Shown here one piece after another: positions 4,382 through 11,228 of a stretch of 27,847 nt of DNA. The position numbers and the translations under genes are program-made. Each line of letters opens with the position of its first letter. Position 1 is the stretch's first letter. Under the pieces are notes generated by a model. That model made no database searches. It was not told where the DNA came from and saw only the letters and a list, made by a program, of their open reading frames with translations. The DNA is from a virus, in IMG/VR virus record IMGVR_UViG_3300025652_000405, positions 1-27,847 of that record; one strand, written 5' to 3'.

Positions 4382-4721
4382 GCATTTTGATCCTTCAGAG
4401 TTTAATTGTCAAGTTACTGGGCATAACAACATGGAAAAGGATTTCCTAGAGAAGATAGATCAGTTGAGAGAAGAGTGCGGGTTTCCTTTCACAATCACCA
4501 GTGGGTTCAGACACCCAACTGAGCATCCGATAGAGGCTAAGAAAGAAGTACCCGGTACTCACGCTCAGGGCATCGCGGCGGATATAAAAATAACAAACGC
4601 CGTGTTTCGCCTTAAGCTGGTAACAAAGGCTATTGAACTAGGATTTACAGGAATAGGCATTGCAGACGACTTTATACACGTTGATACACGCGGAACAACA
4701 CCCGTTATGTGGACGTATTAG
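4371..4721 (+). CDS. M15-family zinc peptidase, probable endolysin
   Basis: The protein has the compact M15 (D-Ala-D-Ala carboxypeptidase / L-Ala-D-Glu endopeptidase) fold signature: SGFRHP at 44-49, GTHAQGIAAD at 62-71 and DFIHVD at 100-105. The predicted zinc ligands are His64, Asp71 and His103, and Asp100 sits where the family has its acidic general base. At 116 residues it is a single catalytic domain without a wall-binding domain or signal peptide, so it needs a holin for export, consistent with the membrane genes at 15019-15907. It would cleave peptidoglycan peptides at lysis. Its location between the two terminase genes, far from the other lysis genes, is unusual. Overlaps on both sides indicate translational coupling. 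Confidence 0.85.
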   Translation: MNLKHFDPSEFNCQVTGHNNMEKDFLEKIDQLREECGFPFTITSGFRHPTEHPIEAKKEVPGTHAQGIAADIKITNAVFRLKLVTKAIELGFTGIGIADDFIHVDTRGTTPVMWTY

Positions 4722-5974
4722 TGGATTTAGATATTGAACTTCTTCCGTGGCAGCAAGATGTTTGGGGAGATGACACACGGTTTAAAATAGTTGCGGCAGG
4801 ACGACGTACAGGTAAGTCTAGACTAGCTGCTTGGTTGTTAATTGTTAACGCATTACAGGCAGGTAAGGGTCATGTATTTTACGTCGCACCTACTCAAGGA
4901 CAAGCCAGAGATATTATGTGGCAAACCCTTTTGGAACTGGGACATCCTGTTATTTCTGGTAGTCACATTAATAATCTGCAAATCAAGTTGGTCAACGGAG
5001 CAACCATTAGCCTTAAAGGTGCTGACAGACCAGAAACAATGCGAGGTGTCAGTCTTAAGTTCTTGGTAATGGATGAATATGCTGACATGAAACCAGAAGT
5101 GTTTGAGCAAATCCTAAGACCTGCGTTGGCTGACCAAAAAGGCTGTGCAATGTTCATAGGCACACCAATGGGAAGAAACCACTTTTATGAACTGTACAAA
5201 TATGCGGAGTTAGGCGATGATCCGACGTACAAGGCTTGGCACTTTACTTCTTATGACAATCCATTATTGGACCCGGACGAAATTGACATTGCTAAACGCT
5301 CTATGTCGTCTTATGCGTTTCGTCAGGAATTTATGGCGTCGTTTGAAGCCCGTGGTTCGGAGATGTTTAAGGAAGACTGGGTTAGCTTTGGAGAAGAGCC
5401 TGACGAGGGTGACTACTATATTGCAATCGACTTGGCAGGTTTTGAAGAAGTAGGCAAAAAACGTACAAAGAATACCAAGCTTGACGAGACTGCTATATCT
5501 GTAGTTAAAGTAGGGGACAACGGAGACTGGTACGTAGAAAACATTATATATGGGCGTTGGACATTAGATGAGACAGCTATCAAGATCTTCCAAGCTGTGC
5601 GTGATTACAGCCCTATTTCTGTTGGCATCGAAAGGGGAATTGCAAAACAGGCAGTTATGTCACCCTTGCTTAATTTACAAAAGAAGTACGCACAGTTTTT
5701 TAGAATTGAAGAGTTGACGCACGGTAACAAAAAGAAAACAGACAGGGTAATGTGGGCGTTACAAGGCAGGTTTGAAAACAACACCATTACTTTAAACAAA
5801 GGTGAATGGAACAGTAGATTTCTTGACCAACTGTTTCAGTTCCCTGATCCACTGACGCATGATGACTTAGTTGACTCTCTTGCGTACATAGATCAATTAG
5901 CTAACGTTCCTTACGGTATAGGGGACATAGAGTTCGATGAACCTGAAATTTTAGACATTGTAGCAGGATACTGA
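4709..5974 (+). CDS. terL: Terminase large subunit (packaging ATPase and nuclease)
   Basis: This is the motor that pumps and cuts DNA during head filling. Walker A is AAGRRTGKS (residues 29-37), Walker B is FLVMDE (118-123, catalytic Glu123), and the coupling motif is FIGTP (149-153). The C-terminal RNase H-like nuclease shows Asp240 in IAIDLAG, a Glu in GIERG, and an acidic THDDLVDS motif near the end. At 421 residues it is short but complete. The start is GTG at 4709 inside the end of the peptidase gene. An alternative GTG at 4721, overlapping the stop codon, would drop four residues, and neither has a strong ribosome binding site. It ends one base before the portal gene. Confidence 0.96.
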   Translation: MDVLVDLDIELLPWQQDVWGDDTRFKIVAAGRRTGKSRLAAWLLIVNALQAGKGHVFYVAPTQGQARDIMWQTLLELGHPVISGSHINNLQIKLVNGATISLKGADRPETMRGVSLKFLVMDEYADMKPEVFEQILRPALADQKGCAMFIGTPMGRNHFYELYKYAELGDDPTYKAWHFTSYDNPLLDPDEIDIAKRSMSSYAFRQEFMASFEARGSEMFKEDWVSFGEEPDEGDYYIAIDLAGFEEVGKKRTKNTKLDETAISVVKVGDNGDWYVENIIYGRWTLDETAIKIFQAVRDYSPISVGIERGIAKQAVMSPLLNLQKKYAQFFRIEELTHGNKKKTDRVMWALQGRFENNTITLNKGEWNSRFLDQLFQFPDPLTHDDLVDSLAYIDQLANVPYGIGDIEFDEPEILDIVAGY

Positions 5975-5975
5975 T

Positions 5976-8030
5976 ATGACTGAACTATATGAACAAGACC
6001 CATTGATGATCCAAGAGTCTCTAGAAGATTGGGTTATAACTAAGTGTGACGATTGGAGGGATAACTACGAAAGCAATTATGAACAGAAATTTGAAGAGTA
6101 TTATAGATTATGGCGTGGTCAATGGAATCCTGCTGACAGTGAGCGTGGGTCTGAGCGTTCCCGTATTATTTCTCCTGCATTACAACAGGCAGTTGAGTCT
6201 AATGTAGCGGAGCTAGAAGAGGCTACGTTTGGACGTGGTAAGTGGTTTGATGTTAGTGATAACTTCGGTGATACGGACAAGCAAGACGTACAGTTCCTAC
6301 GTAACAAGCTTACGGAAGACTTTGAAAACTGCATGGTACGTAAGGCCGTTGCAGAATGCTTAATTAACTCAGCGGTGTTTGGTACGGGCATTGGTGAGAT
6401 TGTTATTGAAGAAATGAAAGAGATGGTTCCTGCTACTCAACCTGTTATGGGAGGTGATCTTCAAGCGGTAGGCGTTAACATTACTGAGCGTGTAGTTGTA
6501 AAACTTAAGCCGGTACTGCCTCAGAACTTTTTAATTGACCCTGTAGCGACATCTATTGAAGACGCTATGGGTGTAGCTATTGATGAGTTTGTTAGCAAGC
6601 ACCACGTAGAATTGTTACAAGAACAAGGCGTATACAAGGATGTTTATGTTGGTTCAGCTGCTCCTGACACAGACCTAGAGCCTGACCAAGACCTTACTGT
6701 TTACAGTGACGACAAAGTACGTCTCACTAAATACTACGGTTTAGTGCCACGAGAGCTTCTAGATTCAGCTCTAAGCGACGATACAGAAGAACTGGTAGAA
6801 GAGGAAGGGTCTGAGTCAAAGTACGTAGAAGCCGTTGTAGTGATCGCTAACGGCGGTACGTTACTGAAAGCAGAAGCTAACCCTTACATGATGGAAGACC
6901 GTCCTGTAGTAGCGTTTCCTTGGGATGTAGTACCCGGACGTTTCTGGGGTCGTGGTGTATGTGAAAAAGGCTACAACAGCCAAAAAGCTCTTGACACTGA
7001 GTTACGTGCAAGAATAGACGCACTAAGCCTTACTATTCACCCAATGATGGCCATTGATGCTACACGGCTACCACGCGGTTCTAAGCCTGAAGTACGTCCC
7101 GGAAAAATGATCTTAACCAACGGAGACCCACGTGAAGTTTTACAGCCTTTTAACTTTGGCCAAGTTAATCAAATCACTTTTGCTCAGGCCGGAGCCTTGC
7201 AGCAAATGGTACAACAAGCAACAGGAGCCGTTGACTCAGCAGGAATTGCAGGTCAGGTTAACGGCGAGAGTACTGCCGCTGGCATTAGTATGTCTCTTGG
7301 CGCTATTATTAAACGTCATAAACGGACCCTAATTAACTTCCAACAATCTTTCTTGATTCCTTTTGTTAAGAAAGCAGCCTATAGGTACATGCAATTTGAC
7401 CCCGAAAATTACCCTGTTGCTGATTATAAATTTAACGCTAGTAGTACTTTGGGTATTATTGCAAGAGAATACGAAGTTACTCAGCTAGTACAGTTGTTAC
7501 AGACTATGGGTAAAGACTCACCGTTGTATAACACGTTAATACAATCTGTTATTGACAACATGAATTTGTCTAATCGTGAAGAGCTACTTGCAGCACTAGC
7601 TCAGGCATCTCAGCCTAACCCGCAAGCACAGCAGATGCAACAGCAAGCACAACAGTTGCAAATGCAATTCCAGCAGTCACAGACTCAAGCACTCTCTGCT
7701 CAAGCTCAAGAGTCACAAGCTAGGGCTGCTAAGTTAGCTGCTGAAGCTGCTGTTGTACCGCAAGAACTAGAAATAGATAAGATTAACGCTATCACTCGAA
7801 ACCTTCGTGAAGGTGATGCTGAAGATAAAGAGTTTGAACGCCGTATGAAAGTGGCTGATACTCTCCTCAAAGAAAAGCAACTACAAGGTAAGACTAATGC
7901 TAATAACGCAAAAGGAAATGCAGTCCCTGCTGGACCAAGTCAACGACCACTTCAAAGGGACGTTCCAACGCCTCAAAGTCCTAGAGGACCAGCTAAACCA
8001 ACTGGAAACCAAGGTGGAGGGATTATCTAA
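5976..8030 (+). CDS. Portal protein (head-tail connector), P22-like type
   Basis: At 684 residues it has the size of long podovirus portals (P22 gp1). It follows the terminase and precedes scaffold and capsid genes. The N-terminus has the aromatic WRDNYESNYEQKFEEYYRLW and WNPADSERGSERSRI segments typical of portals. The middle contains the stem and clip region. Residues from about 545 form a Gln/Ala-rich helix-barrel-like tail (QAQQMQQQAQQLQMQFQQ), followed by charged helices and a Pro/Gly-rich last 40 residues. That low-complexity end is the part overlapped by the nested ORF at 7897-8103 in another frame. The stop overlaps the next ATG by one base (TAATG). Confidence 0.93.
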   Translation: MTELYEQDPLMIQESLEDWVITKCDDWRDNYESNYEQKFEEYYRLWRGQWNPADSERGSERSRIISPALQQAVESNVAELEEATFGRGKWFDVSDNFGDTDKQDVQFLRNKLTEDFENCMVRKAVAECLINSAVFGTGIGEIVIEEMKEMVPATQPVMGGDLQAVGVNITERVVVKLKPVLPQNFLIDPVATSIEDAMGVAIDEFVSKHHVELLQEQGVYKDVYVGSAAPDTDLEPDQDLTVYSDDKVRLTKYYGLVPRELLDSALSDDTEELVEEEGSESKYVEAVVVIANGGTLLKAEANPYMMEDRPVVAFPWDVVPGRFWGRGVCEKGYNSQKALDTELRARIDALSLTIHPMMAIDATRLPRGSKPEVRPGKMILTNGDPREVLQPFNFGQVNQITFAQAGALQQMVQQATGAVDSAGIAGQVNGESTAAGISMSLGAIIKRHKRTLINFQQSFLIPFVKKAAYRYMQFDPENYPVADYKFNASSTLGIIAREYEVTQLVQLLQTMGKDSPLYNTLIQSVIDNMNLSNREELLAALAQASQPNPQAQQMQQQAQQLQMQFQQSQTQALSAQAQESQARAAKLAAEAAVVPQELEIDKINAITRNLREGDAEDKEFERRMKVADTLLKEKQLQGKTNANNAKGNAVPAGPSQRPLQRDVPTPQSPRGPAKPTGNQGGGII

Positions 8031-8103
8031 TGCCAGCAAAGAAAGACCCAAAACTAGCACGAGCAGGAGTAAGCGGGTACAACAAACCAAAGCGGACGCC
8101 TAG
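7897..8103 (+). CDS. Nested overlapping gene: 68-residue coiled-coil protein
   Basis: This ORF lies in a different frame from both neighbours. It covers the last 134 bases of the portal gene and the first 74 bases of the gene at 8030. The product has a clean heptad helix (LLDQVNDHFKGTFQRLKVLE then QLNQLETKVEGL) followed by a basic Ser/Thr/Lys-rich tail. That pattern is much more protein-like than a shadow frame usually gives, while the portal frame here is Pro/Gly/Gln low complexity. AAGG lies 8 bases before the ATG at 7897. Short proteins with an LLDQVN...LEDQ-type coiled coil occur at this place in other phages, to my recollection. A head-tail or virion accessory role is possible. If it is not real, the coiled coil is coincidence. 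Confidence 0.6.
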   Translation: MLITQKEMQSLLDQVNDHFKGTFQRLKVLEDQLNQLETKVEGLSNASKERPKTSTSRSKRVQQTKADA

Positions 8104-8296
8104 CCACAAGACTAAGAAGTTTGTAGTCGTTGCTAAAGAAGGTGACACAACTAAAACCATACGCTTTGGCGATCAAAACATGAGCATTAAGAAGGACCAG
8201 CCTGCACGACGGAAGTCGTTTAGAGCACGTCACAAGTGTGACACAAGCCCACCCAGTAAACTAACAGCACGATATTGGTCGTGTAAGAAATGGTAA
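8030..8296 (+). CDS. Small basic phage protein (RARHKCD / ARYWSCKKW motif)
   Basis: An 88-residue, Lys/Arg-rich protein. The recognisable features are the N-terminal KLARAGVSGYNKPKRTPSH, the VVVAKEGD...TIRFGDQ middle, and the C-terminal KSFRARHKCD...ARYWSCKKW, with two Cys and a His that could bind a metal. I know this motif set from small proteins of marine phages and algal viruses; the function is unassigned. The start overlaps the portal stop. Position among structural genes and high charge suggest a virion or DNA-associated protein (inference). Confidence 0.85.
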   Translation: MPAKKDPKLARAGVSGYNKPKRTPSHKTKKFVVVAKEGDTTKTIRFGDQNMSIKKDQPARRKSFRARHKCDTSPPSKLTARYWSCKKW

Positions 8297-8306
8297 GGAG
8301 ATAGTT

Positions 8307-8423
8307 ATGCCATACGGAACAGGAACATACGGAAACAAAGTAGGACGACCACCGGCCAAAAAGAAAAAGAAAGCCATGCCTGTAACACGCAGTAGAGGTA
8401 CAGGAAGTAGACGAGGTAAGTAA
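8307..8423 (+). CDS. 38-residue very basic protein with AT-hook-like motif
   Basis: The ORF begins MPYGTGTYGNKVGRPPAKKK and continues with Lys/Arg, ending in SRRGK. A GRP core flanked by basic residues resembles an AT-hook. GGAG lies 8 bases before the ATG, and it fills the gap between neighbours without overlap. Similar tiny MPYGxGTYG-type proteins occur beside portal genes in other phages, as I recall. It probably binds DNA or is a virion component; no evidence decides. Confidence 0.8.
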   Translation: MPYGTGTYGNKVGRPPAKKKKKAMPVTRSRGTGSRRGK

Positions 8424-8424
8424 C

Positions 8425-8595
8425 ATGGCTAAAGCAAAAGCAAAGCCTAAAAAGTCTGGACCTACTCCTAAAAATAAGGCATTGTATTCTAGAGTTAAAG
8501 CAGAGGCTAAACGTAAGTTTGACGTATGGCCTTCTGCCTACGCTTCTGCGTGGTTAACTCGTGAGTACAAAAAACGTGGAGGTACTTATGCCTAA
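8425..8595 (+). CDS. 56-residue basic protein (WPSAYASAWL..YKKRGG motif)
   Basis: It has a Lys-rich start (MAKAKAKPKKSG) and a helix YSRVKAEAKRKFDVWPSAYA, then SAWLTREYKKRGGTYA. The PSAYA...W...YKKRGG pattern is a known small-protein motif of marine phages and large algal viruses, of unknown function. It starts one base after the previous stop and overlaps the next gene by 8 bases. It was found by reading the gap between the flanking genes. Confidence 0.8.
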   Translation: MAKAKAKPKKSGPTPKNKALYSRVKAEAKRKFDVWPSAYASAWLTREYKKRGGTYA

Positions 8596-8884
8596 AAGGG
8601 TTTCTACAGGAGGTGCTAAACGTCCCAAGAAAGGTTTAACCAAATGGTTTGACGAAGAATGGGTAGACGTTAAGACAGGTAAGTCTTGTGGTCGTAAGTC
8701 TACAAAAAAAGTAGGCTCTAAGAAAACTACTCGTCCATACCCCTCCTGTCGGCCTAAGGCAGTAGCAGCTAAGATGACAGCAGCAGAAAAGAAGTCCTCT
8801 GCTACACGTAAGACAGGACCTAAAGCTATTAAACATGCAGTCACAGCTTCTGGTAAGCGTAGGAAAACCACTAGAAAAGCTTGA
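8588..8884 (+). CDS. 98-residue Cys-containing basic protein (KWFDEEWVDVKTGKSCGR motif)
   Basis: The first half has KWFDEEWVDVKTGKSCGRK and later YPSCRPK. The CGR and SCRP elements put two Cys in positions that recur in a family of small phage and viral proteins of unknown function. The second half is a Lys/Ala/Thr-rich tail resembling histone-like or nucleoid proteins (KSSATRKTGPKAIKHAV). I chose the ATG at 8588 because GGAGG lies 5 bases upstream; an in-frame upstream start near 8561 would run far into the previous gene. The stop codon overlaps the -35 box of the 8881 promoter. Confidence 0.85.
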   Translation: MPKRVSTGGAKRPKKGLTKWFDEEWVDVKTGKSCGRKSTKKVGSKKTTRPYPSCRPKAVAAKMTAAEKKSSATRKTGPKAIKHAVTASGKRRKTTRKA

Positions 8885-8909
8885 CATTTACTAAAAAGTA
8901 TGATATAAT
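8881..8909 (+). promoter_or_regulatory. Second rightward consensus promoter (head genes)
   Basis: TTGACA, 17 bases and TATAAT form a perfect consensus with TG one base before the -10. The spacer shares AAAAGTATG with the promoter at 3836-3864, ending at the same distance from the -10. It overlaps the end of the preceding gene. A palindrome AACTATAGTT sits just downstream, around the likely start point, before the ATG at 8941. Confidence 0.9.
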
Positions 8910-8940
8910 TAAACTATAGTTAACAACATTAGAGAAACCA

Positions 8941-9195
8941 ATGACATCTGAGCTTGAAACTTATTTTAACAACTACAACGAACTCTTCAATAGTGAAGGT
9001 TTCAAACAACTCATTCAAGAGCTTTCTACTAACGCACAGCAATTAGCAGATATACAGACTGTAAAAAACGTAGAAGATTTACACTTCCGTAAAGGACAAG
9101 TTGCTGCTTTTGCTACCGTAATTAACCTACAGAGTACTATTGAGGCTGCCAGAGACCAAGCTGAAGCCGACGAAGAAGATCCTGTAGATGTATAA
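8941..9195 (+). CDS. Hypothetical 84-residue acidic helical protein
   Basis: First gene after the second promoter. The protein is acidic and helical, beginning MTSELETYFNNYNELFNSEG and ending in a run of acidic residues (ADEEDPVDV). There are no membrane segments or catalytic motifs. Its 3' end overlaps the Zn-ribbon gene by 8 bases. Position before Zn-ribbon, scaffold and capsid genes suggests a head-assembly or portal-proximal accessory role (inference). AGAGAAA upstream is a weak ribosome binding site. Confidence 0.8.
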   Translation: MTSELETYFNNYNELFNSEGFKQLIQELSTNAQQLADIQTVKNVEDLHFRKGQVAAFATVINLQSTIEAARDQAEADEEDPVDV

Positions 9196-9397
9196 AATAT
9201 ATGACTTCCGTTGCACTAACGGTCACGTCTTTGAAGAATTTGTAACGTCAGGTACTACAACCAGTAGGTGCGGTTGTGGCGCTAACGCTACAAAAATGGT
9301 ATCTGCCCCGTCTTTCCACCTTAATGGCTCCGATGGTTCATTCCCCGGAGCACACATTAAATGGGCTAGGGAACACGAAAAAGCAGGTAATAAATAG
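9188..9397 (+). CDS. FmdB-like zinc-ribbon protein
   Basis: The protein opens with IYDFRCTNGHVFEEF and continues to SRCGCGA, then KMVSAPSFHL. This is the pattern of the FmdB/putative regulatory protein zinc ribbon: aromatic start, Cys9 with following GH, a paired Cys28-x-Cys30, and a conserved PSF-L segment. Here the first Cys pair is replaced by Cys plus His13. Such small proteins are common beside phage head genes, where their role is not established. Length 69 residues. Confidence 0.85.
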   Translation: MYKIYDFRCTNGHVFEEFVTSGTTTSRCGCGANATKMVSAPSFHLNGSDGSFPGAHIKWAREHEKAGNK

Positions 9398-9408
9398 TAA
9401 CTCCATAA

Positions 9409-9420
9409 TGATTATAATCA
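9409..9420. repeat. Perfect 12-base palindrome TGATTATAATCA
   Basis: It lies in the 35-base gap between the Zn-ribbon and scaffold genes, directly before the scaffold ribosome binding site (GGAG at 9422-9425). It is too AT-rich for a good terminator stem. It could be a protein site or an RNA feature affecting scaffold translation. Confidence 0.4.
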
Positions 9421-9432
9421 CGGAGCTTAATA

Positions 9433-10230
9433 ATGTCAAGAGCAACATTAGTTGACCCGCAGCCCGAAATGGAAAACGCGGACGATATAAATGAAGAAGC
9501 AAATGAGACTCAGTACGTAGAAGAACAAACTGAGCAACCTCAAGAGCAGTCTACCGTTCCAGAGAAGTACCAAGGTAAGTCGCTGGAAGAAGTTGTACAG
9601 ATGCACCAAGAAGCTGAAAAGCTTTTAGGTCGTCAGTCCGGTGAGGTAGGTGAACTTCGCAAAGTGGTAGATGATTATATTTCTAATCAAACTACTGCAC
9701 AAGCACCTCAACAAACTGTTGAGCCTGAAGATGACATAGATTACTTCACTGATCCACAAGGTGCTGTTAATCGTGCTATTGAGAACCACCCTAAGATTAG
9801 AGAAGCAGAGCAGTACACTACGCAGTACAAAAAGCAGTCGTCACTAGCTTCGCTTCAAGCCAAACACCCAGACATGCAAAATATACTTAGTGACCCTAAG
9901 TTTGCAGAATGGATCAAAGCGTCTAAGATTAGGACTCAGTTGTTTGTAGCGGCTGACCAACAGTATGATTCCGATTCTGCTGATGAACTATTTACACTCT
10001 GGAAAGAACGTAAAGTAGTTGCTCAACAGACTGCTAATGTTGAAAAACAGGCACGGAAGCAAACACTGAAGGCAGCTAGTACAGGTAATGCACGAGGCAG
10101 TAGCCAAGGGACAAGGAAGAAAGTGTATCGTCGGGCCGATATTATTAAACTTATGAGAACAGACCCGGACCGTTATACAGCATTAGCCGATGAGATTATG
10201 GCAGCTTATGCGGAGGGTCGAGTAAAATAA
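9433..10230 (+). CDS. Capsid scaffold / head assembly protein
   Basis: A 265-residue protein directly before the major capsid gene. It is strongly acidic and Gln/Glu-rich at the N-terminus (NEEANETQYVEEQTEQPQEQ), has helical segments such as SLEEVVQMHQEAEKLLG, and carries a basic C-terminal region (GTRKKVYRRADIIKLMRTD). An acidic disordered start, helical middle and basic capsid-binding tail are characteristic of podovirus scaffold proteins, which guide capsid assembly and leave before or during packaging. No protease domain is visible. Confidence 0.88.
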   Translation: MSRATLVDPQPEMENADDINEEANETQYVEEQTEQPQEQSTVPEKYQGKSLEEVVQMHQEAEKLLGRQSGEVGELRKVVDDYISNQTTAQAPQQTVEPEDDIDYFTDPQGAVNRAIENHPKIREAEQYTTQYKKQSSLASLQAKHPDMQNILSDPKFAEWIKASKIRTQLFVAADQQYDSDSADELFTLWKERKVVAQQTANVEKQARKQTLKAASTGNARGSSQGTRKKVYRRADIIKLMRTDPDRYTALADEIMAAYAEGRVK

Positions 10231-10244
10231 TCTAGGAGATTACA

Positions 10245-11228
10245 ATGGCTACTCAAACTTATCCCGGTACGGTTGGCGGTGGAAGTATCGTCAACAAAAC
10301 AGCAGCTGCTACTTTTATTCCAGAAATCTGGAGTGACGAAGTAATTGCTGCCTATCAGAAGAACCTGAAGATGGCTCCTCTGGTCAAGAAGCTTCCAATG
10401 ACAGGCAAGAAGGGTGATGTAATTCACATTCCTAAGCCTATCCGTGGTGCTGCTTCTGCTAAGGTTGCTGACACTGCTGTCAACATCCAAGCAAACGTAG
10501 AAGGCGAATTGCAGGTTTCTGTTAATCGTCACTTCGAGTACTCACGTTTCATCGAAGACATTGTAGAAGTACAGGCGCTTAACAGCCTCCGTCAGTTCTA
10601 CACTGAAGATGCTGGTTATCAGCTGGCTCTTAAGGTTGATACTGACCTTATGAACGCTGCTACTGGTTTCGGTAACGGAACTATGGATCTTGCTGCTCCT
10701 ACTGGTGCTGACTGGGAAAACAGTAACTCATACTTCTTTGATGCCGCAGCAACAGGTGGTACTCCATTAAGTTTGTTTGATGCTGCTGGTGGACACAGCG
10801 TAGCTGCTGGTGACGTCTTTAGCGATGCTGGCTTCCGTCAAGCTATTCAGTTGTTGGACGATGCTGACGTACCAATGGACGGACGTTGCATTATCGTTCC
10901 TCCAGTAGTACGTAACACCATCATGGGTACTGAGCGATTCTCGTCTTCTGACTTCGTATCAGGACAGACTGTTAACACTGGCCTCATTGGTAACTTGTAT
11001 GGCGTAGACGTTTACGTTTCATCCAACTGCCCAACACTTGAGTCCAATGTACGTGGTTGTATCCTTATGCAGAAGGACGCTCTTGTACACGCAGAGCAGA
11101 TGACTGTACGTTCACAGACTCAGTACAAGCAAGAGTACCTCTCAACGCTGTACACTGCTGACACTCTCTACGGTGTTCAGGTATACCGTCCAGAAGCTGG
11201 TCTTGTACTTGCTGTCTACGACGCGTAA
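10245..11228 (+). CDS. Major capsid protein
   Basis: A 327-residue protein with strong ribosome binding site (CTAGGAGA at 10232-10239), placed after the scaffold and followed by a terminator. Typical capsid segments are FIPEIWSDEVIAAYQKNL near the N-terminus, GDVIHIPKP, the LALKVDTDLMNAA helix, and VPPVVRNTIMGTERF near residue 225. These fit the HK97-type coat fold used by tailed phages. Codon choice is visibly richer in C-ending codons (GTC, CTC, ATC, AAG) than in neighbouring genes, as expected of the most highly expressed protein. Confidence 0.94.
   Translation: MATQTYPGTVGGGSIVNKTAAATFIPEIWSDEVIAAYQKNLKMAPLVKKLPMTGKKGDVIHIPKPIRGAASAKVADTAVNIQANVEGELQVSVNRHFEYSRFIEDIVEVQALNSLRQFYTEDAGYQLALKVDTDLMNAATGFGNGTMDLAAPTGADWENSNSYFFDAAATGGTPLSLFDAAGGHSVAAGDVFSDAGFRQAIQLLDDADVPMDGRCIIVPPVVRNTIMGTERFSSSDFVSGQTVNTGLIGNLYGVDVYVSSNCPTLESNVRGCILMQKDALVHAEQMTVRSQTQYKQEYLSTLYTADTLYGVQVYRPEAGLVLAVYDA

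Follow-up and report, generated by a model that had tools for sequence, protein, structure and literature searches.

A small coiled-coil gene beneath the portal tail of uncultured phages, probably overrun by portal read-through

Nested phage genes such as E within D in phiX174 and Rz1 within Rz in lambda are classic cases of overprinting. The gene described here, which encodes a 68-residue putative coiled-coil protein and which we call X, resembles them in that one stretch specifies two proteins in different frames, the inner one internally started. It differs in that X does not lie wholly inside one gene, and in that X appears to be the partner that came first and carries the sequence constraint, the portal tail being the passenger. 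Also close are the same-strand overlaps described by Fonseca et al. 2013 (PMC3887535), in which an upstream gene loses its stop codon and runs on, in a different frame, into the gene that follows; same-strand overlaps arise more commonly in this way, by 3' extension. Compared with these, the X locus chains two overlaps across three genes, and within its clade X can be seen standing alone, overlapping slightly, fully nested and separated again. A partial parallel is found in Pelagibacter phage HTVC106P (portal gp65/gp64, MN698244), whose portal is ~25% identical to the one studied here and ends in a polar tail that runs 77 nt into the 5' end of the gene following it on the same strand (L378:3993-4069). 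The overlapped 98-aa gene is unlike X, however, and by eye is closer to an 84-aa protein encoded further downstream in our window (8941-9195). This cultured pelagiphage possibly represents an independent portal-tail extension. No X-like gene was evident after the portal in HTVC106P, CRP-3 or ctYwJ313, three more distant portal-bearing phages, and a literature search of limited extent returned no report of a gene nested in a portal end.

The window, i.e. the whole stretch analyzed, comprises positions 1 to 27,847 of IMG/VR record IMGVR_UViG_3300025652_000405 (Table 1). X follows the portal gene and precedes the scaffold and capsid genes, the scaffold-like gene being a separate one (9433-10230), and overlaps the portal 3' end by 134 nt and the 5' end of the following basic-protein gene by 74 nt, each in a different frame. 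An earlier note, made from the sequence alone, had proposed this nested gene with coordinates that proved exact, along with the AAGG upstream of its start. It had also described three frames as open at once around 8030; three frames do meet there, but only at the 1-nt stop/start overlap of the TAATG, and there is no stretch coding in all three. For the region 4709-11228, the phage collection held nothing cultured that is close to this clade: the best portal matches reached ~22-27% identity, and the capsid was ~34% identical to those of LPP-2/Pf-WMP3-like cyanophages. The clade carrying X apparently consists of uncultured, mostly marine phages.

Table 1. Features of the X locus, in window coordinates
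Feature	Position	Strand	Details or basis
Portal protein gene	5976-8030	+	frame 3; 684 aa; phrog_1216 (E 2.5e-51); Pfam SU10_portal (E 1.5e-22)
AAGG, ribosome-binding site of X, within portal gene	7885-7888	+	8 nt 5' of ATG
X gene	7897-8103	+	frame 1; 68 aa; ATG start; coiled-coil protein (predicted)
Portal C-terminal tail over X	7899-8027	+	portal-frame pN/pS 1.2-1.9; resampling; composition
Predicted long helix of X, residues 5-48	7909-8040	+	AlphaFold2; 7-residue indel between homologues
GGAGG, ribosome-binding site of basic-protein gene	8016-8020	+	spelled by X codons 40-42
TAATG, portal stop and basic-protein gene start	8028-8032	+	sequence
Basic-protein gene	8030-8296	+	frame 2; 88 aa; phrog_7595 (E 3.9e-28); Pfam DUF5754 below cut-off
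X basic tail, over 5' end of basic-protein gene	8033-8100	+	mostly passenger; pN/pS

A search with the portal as query matched at least 599 IMG/VR stretches. Of 303 related loci, from IMG/VR and MAGs, that extend far enough beyond the portal, 295 contained an X homologue, a count in which overlapping fetches are included separately and for which a minority of loci were drawn with X itself as the query; all are uncultured contigs, and they represent related sequences rather than independent events. The eight loci without X were mostly short or cut inside a cassette inserted after the portal, and in two of them (L222 and L290) a pattern search located X further downstream. Within the first 80 loci fetched, X occupied the same place down to ~40% identity, with a few copies ~1.1 kb downstream and two loci ending before the gene. 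Homologues, stand-alone copies included, were recognizable over their full length from 98% to ~40% identity, with frames intact from ATG to stop. The arrangement behaves as a functional same-strand overlap, with 232 nested matches retaining an intact X (overlapping fetches counted) and both frames open and conserved across relatives. In one locus (L118:1-1572), a frameshift or assembly error interrupts the portal frame upstream and X downstream is intact; only the frameshifted portal makes this locus seem distant. Overall, we put at about 0.86 the probability that X is a real, separately translated gene whose overlap arose through loss of the portal stop codon and read-through, its reality being argued for because hundreds of related phages retain X and distant relatives carry it as a separate gene.

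Patterns of diversity indicate which frame is under constraint. Upstream of the overlap, the portal shows a pS of 0.54 and a pN/pS of 0.10. Within it, the portal frame falls to a pS of 0.09, a synonymous diversity about six-fold lower, with a pN/pS of 1.87, and the X frame has a pN/pS of 0.34 (values for one overlap-length class). The same switch recurs in three other length classes, with pN/pS ranging across classes from 0.34 to 0.52 in the X frame and from 1.2 to 1.9 in the portal frame. The most variable codon position moves from the portal third position in the body of the gene to the portal first position in the overlap, which is the third position of X, and X codons there vary most at the third and least at the second position. 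Third-position diversity is lower than first-position diversity in the overlap but in no 43-codon window of the portal body, and 0 of 100,000 random codon sets were as low as the overlap. Synonymous suppression in the portal frame is thus combined with purifying selection in the X frame, and selection within the portal/X overlap acts mainly on X. Both signatures had been anticipated by the earlier note, which had staked the nested gene on close relatives being free of stop codons in the X frame and on synonymous constraint in the portal tail; the relatives bear it out on both points.

The sequence shared with the portal is dictated by X, at the cost of C-ending codons: inside the portal ORF, pyrimidine-ending X codons end in C 1,786 times and in T 97 times. 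This bias had been noticed before and attributed to X shaping the sequence. The bias and the leading role of X both hold, but C itself marks a portal frame kept open and polar. A T-ending X codon before AA, AG or GA would create a portal stop, and T elsewhere would often bring Phe, Tyr, Cys, Trp, Ser or Leu into the tail; in X orthologues that lie outside the portal, T-ending codons are used without such restraint. Even where no stop can be made, C is found at ~90% of positions in nested lineages vs ~47% in never-nested ones. The portal frame remains open in ~1.7% of codon resamplings preserving X (0-5% within single lineages, including L240), yet was open in 145 of 145 nested loci tested; stop avoidance is partly built into the class "nested", which avoidance of non-polar and other residues is not, and openness is meaningful because the nested loci sit in one portal clade with one short-overlap exception (L262). 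The C bias at non-stop positions thus suggests that the portal tail is under selection for openness and polar make-up, its exact sequence appearing otherwise unconstrained. The Pro/Gly/Gln low complexity already seen in the window extends across nested relatives as a Pro/Gly/Gln/Asn/Arg-rich tail from which Cys, His, Trp and Tyr are all but absent.

Where X overlaps the basic-protein gene, constraint falls instead on the downstream partner. There, the X frame has a pN/pS of 1.1-1.6 vs 0.36-0.78 for the basic-protein frame, so that the basic tail of X is mostly a passenger; in L018, a different gene follows X and the X tail is also different. Signals for initiation are widespread, with an ATG start of X in all 178 loci compared and AAGG upstream of it in 125 of them. 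The GGAGG preceding the basic-protein gene, read by X as Val-Glu-Gly here and Val-Glu-Glu in most relatives, is present in 25 of 31 distinct nested upstream stretches, and the portal ends between -3 and +27 nt from the matched start of the basic-protein gene in nearly all nested loci. Translation of X would start internally on the portal message, from a ribosome-binding site that belongs to X, and initiation of the basic-protein gene may depend partly on stop-start coupling at the TAATG and partly on the GGAGG written in X codons.

The relatives also bear on the origin of the overlap. The X ORF stands alone a few bases from the portal stop in several of them (such as L167, L207, L233, L241 and L250), overlaps the portal by 8-26 nt in some and by ~100-146 nt in most, and in others is separated from it by 1-2.4 kb behind a collagen-like cassette (~1.05 kb in L062-L064, L075 and others, behind a collagen-like and a second small protein). 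Nested and stand-alone forms are homologous by profile-profile comparison (probability 94.5%, E 7.7e-8). De novo overprinting would confine the inner gene to lineages with the overlap; stand-alone homologues exist, and therefore X was not created inside the portal, and the portal most likely grew over X. The converse, that X arose by overprinting inside an already long portal tail and its stand-alone copies escaped later, draws on nested loci being the majority of the sample and on the cassette having indeed parted X from the portal several times. We nevertheless consider it improbable, since stand-alone and barely overlapping forms are basal in a portal tree with a distant outgroup, and the portals of stand-alone lineages have unrelated tails ending before or just after the X start. 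Further, the frame of X equivalent to the portal's contains ~1 stop (the real one) in nested loci, 2.3 in cassette-bearing loci and 5.9-6.9 in stand-alone or barely overlapping ones: the low count in cassette-bearing loci is likely a relic of past nesting, and the roughly six stops of the stand-alone forms bear no such relic. The direction of change leans on this relic as well as on the tree because the root comes from portals ~24% identical. In the tree, the nested state forms one large clade and a separate L240 lineage, and cassette forms turn up at scattered points within that large clade. Most probably, the portal stop codon was lost on two or more occasions, and the portal frame now continues across X as far as the TAATG of the next gene; read-through would have ended at the basic-protein start, leaving each protein's loose C-terminal tail over the constrained start of the following gene.

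Other explanations for the conserved stretch fare worse than overprinting. Programmed frameshifting might join the portal tail and X into one fusion, with no separate start for X, as a few codons before its ATG are also open in the X frame; that stretch is short, however, the ATG and ribosome-binding site are conserved, and stand-alone X genes make such a fusion unnecessary, so that we view it as very unlikely. An RNA or DNA signal, with the X frame incidental, would by itself be compatible with synonymous suppression and with the ribosome-binding site in the stretch. Against this, variation tracks X codon positions, one-heptad indels preserve the frame, and the same protein exists without portal overlap, leaving this explanation more remote still. 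Finally, an open X frame alone is unsurprising, as it persists in 53% of codon resamplings preserving the portal protein (89% for the window); it is the conserved X protein and the shift in which codon position varies that go beyond chance, and a frame open by chance only is refuted by homologues that include stand-alone copies, which reduces its likelihood to almost nothing.

For a separately translated X, AlphaFold2 predicted one confident helix and a weak tail (mean pLDDT by block of 85-93 for residues 1-40 and 70 for residues 41-50). The difference between homologues of 61 and 68 aa is exactly one heptad, the unit expected in a coiled coil. This agrees with the regular coiled coil recognized in the earlier note, although the basic tail noted alongside it is mostly dictated by the frame of the next gene. 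Predicted tryptic peptides of X include EMQSLLDQVNDHFK and VLEDQLNQLETK. The comparison with phage proteins proposed at the outset yielded nothing: tblastn of X against 50,697 phage records gave no match even at E 1, a stand-alone X gave none at E 5, and a BFVD fold search with the X model gave nothing significant. Pfam coiled-coil families all matched below their gathering cut-offs, and phrog_5553 was rejected as the family of X, with 10 of 27 members matching at E <= 0.01 (best 2.9e-7) and none of the six stand-alone or short-overlap members doing so. By sequence comparison, these PHROG and Pfam hits are best read as inconsistent generic coiled-coil matches that assign X to no characterized family. 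Tentatively, given its position between portal and scaffold/capsid genes, its near-universal presence in the clade, and its long helix with a charged tail, X may self-associate into a small homo-oligomeric coiled coil bearing a positively charged tail and serve in head assembly, in packaging, or as a minor virion component close to the portal; a small coiled coil with an assembly or minor virion role is the most economical guess. It is conceivable, at somewhat less than even odds, that X is the first member of a family, so far unrecorded, of small coiled-coil proteins found next to the portal throughout a widespread uncultured phage clade, and that repeated portal read-through over X was selected, e.g. 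for coupling portal and downstream translation or for a disordered polar tail.

X was probably missed in gene annotation because both of its overlaps exceed the 60 bp that Prodigal allows at most between same-strand genes (PMC2848648). As such limits would hide a conserved head-module gene, similar genes are probably absent from phage catalogues. The clade also displays the life history of a gene overlap, from stand-alone through slight overlap to full nesting (probably at least twice) and re-separation with a relic, so that it can be tested directly which partner bears the cost of an overlap and what keeps the extended tail in place.

The genes around X are themselves variable. The two-gene cassette (L062:6001-7037; also L063, L064, L075, L258, L282, L284-L286, L294 and L320) occurs in scattered lineages and looks to have been exchanged by recombination; in L222, a two-gene collagen-like cassette precedes an X further downstream, and cassette lineages have their own form of portal tail, ending EQMLMQRLNQE or similar. 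Gene order around the 88-aa basic protein varies across the 159 phage records and many MAG contigs that encode it, including the Cobavirinae phages ICBM2 and P12053L, in which the preceding gene is unrelated to X. Across L018, L207, L223, L233, L241, L349 and the window, the slot after X holds varied small, mostly basic proteins, as if these were interchangeable.
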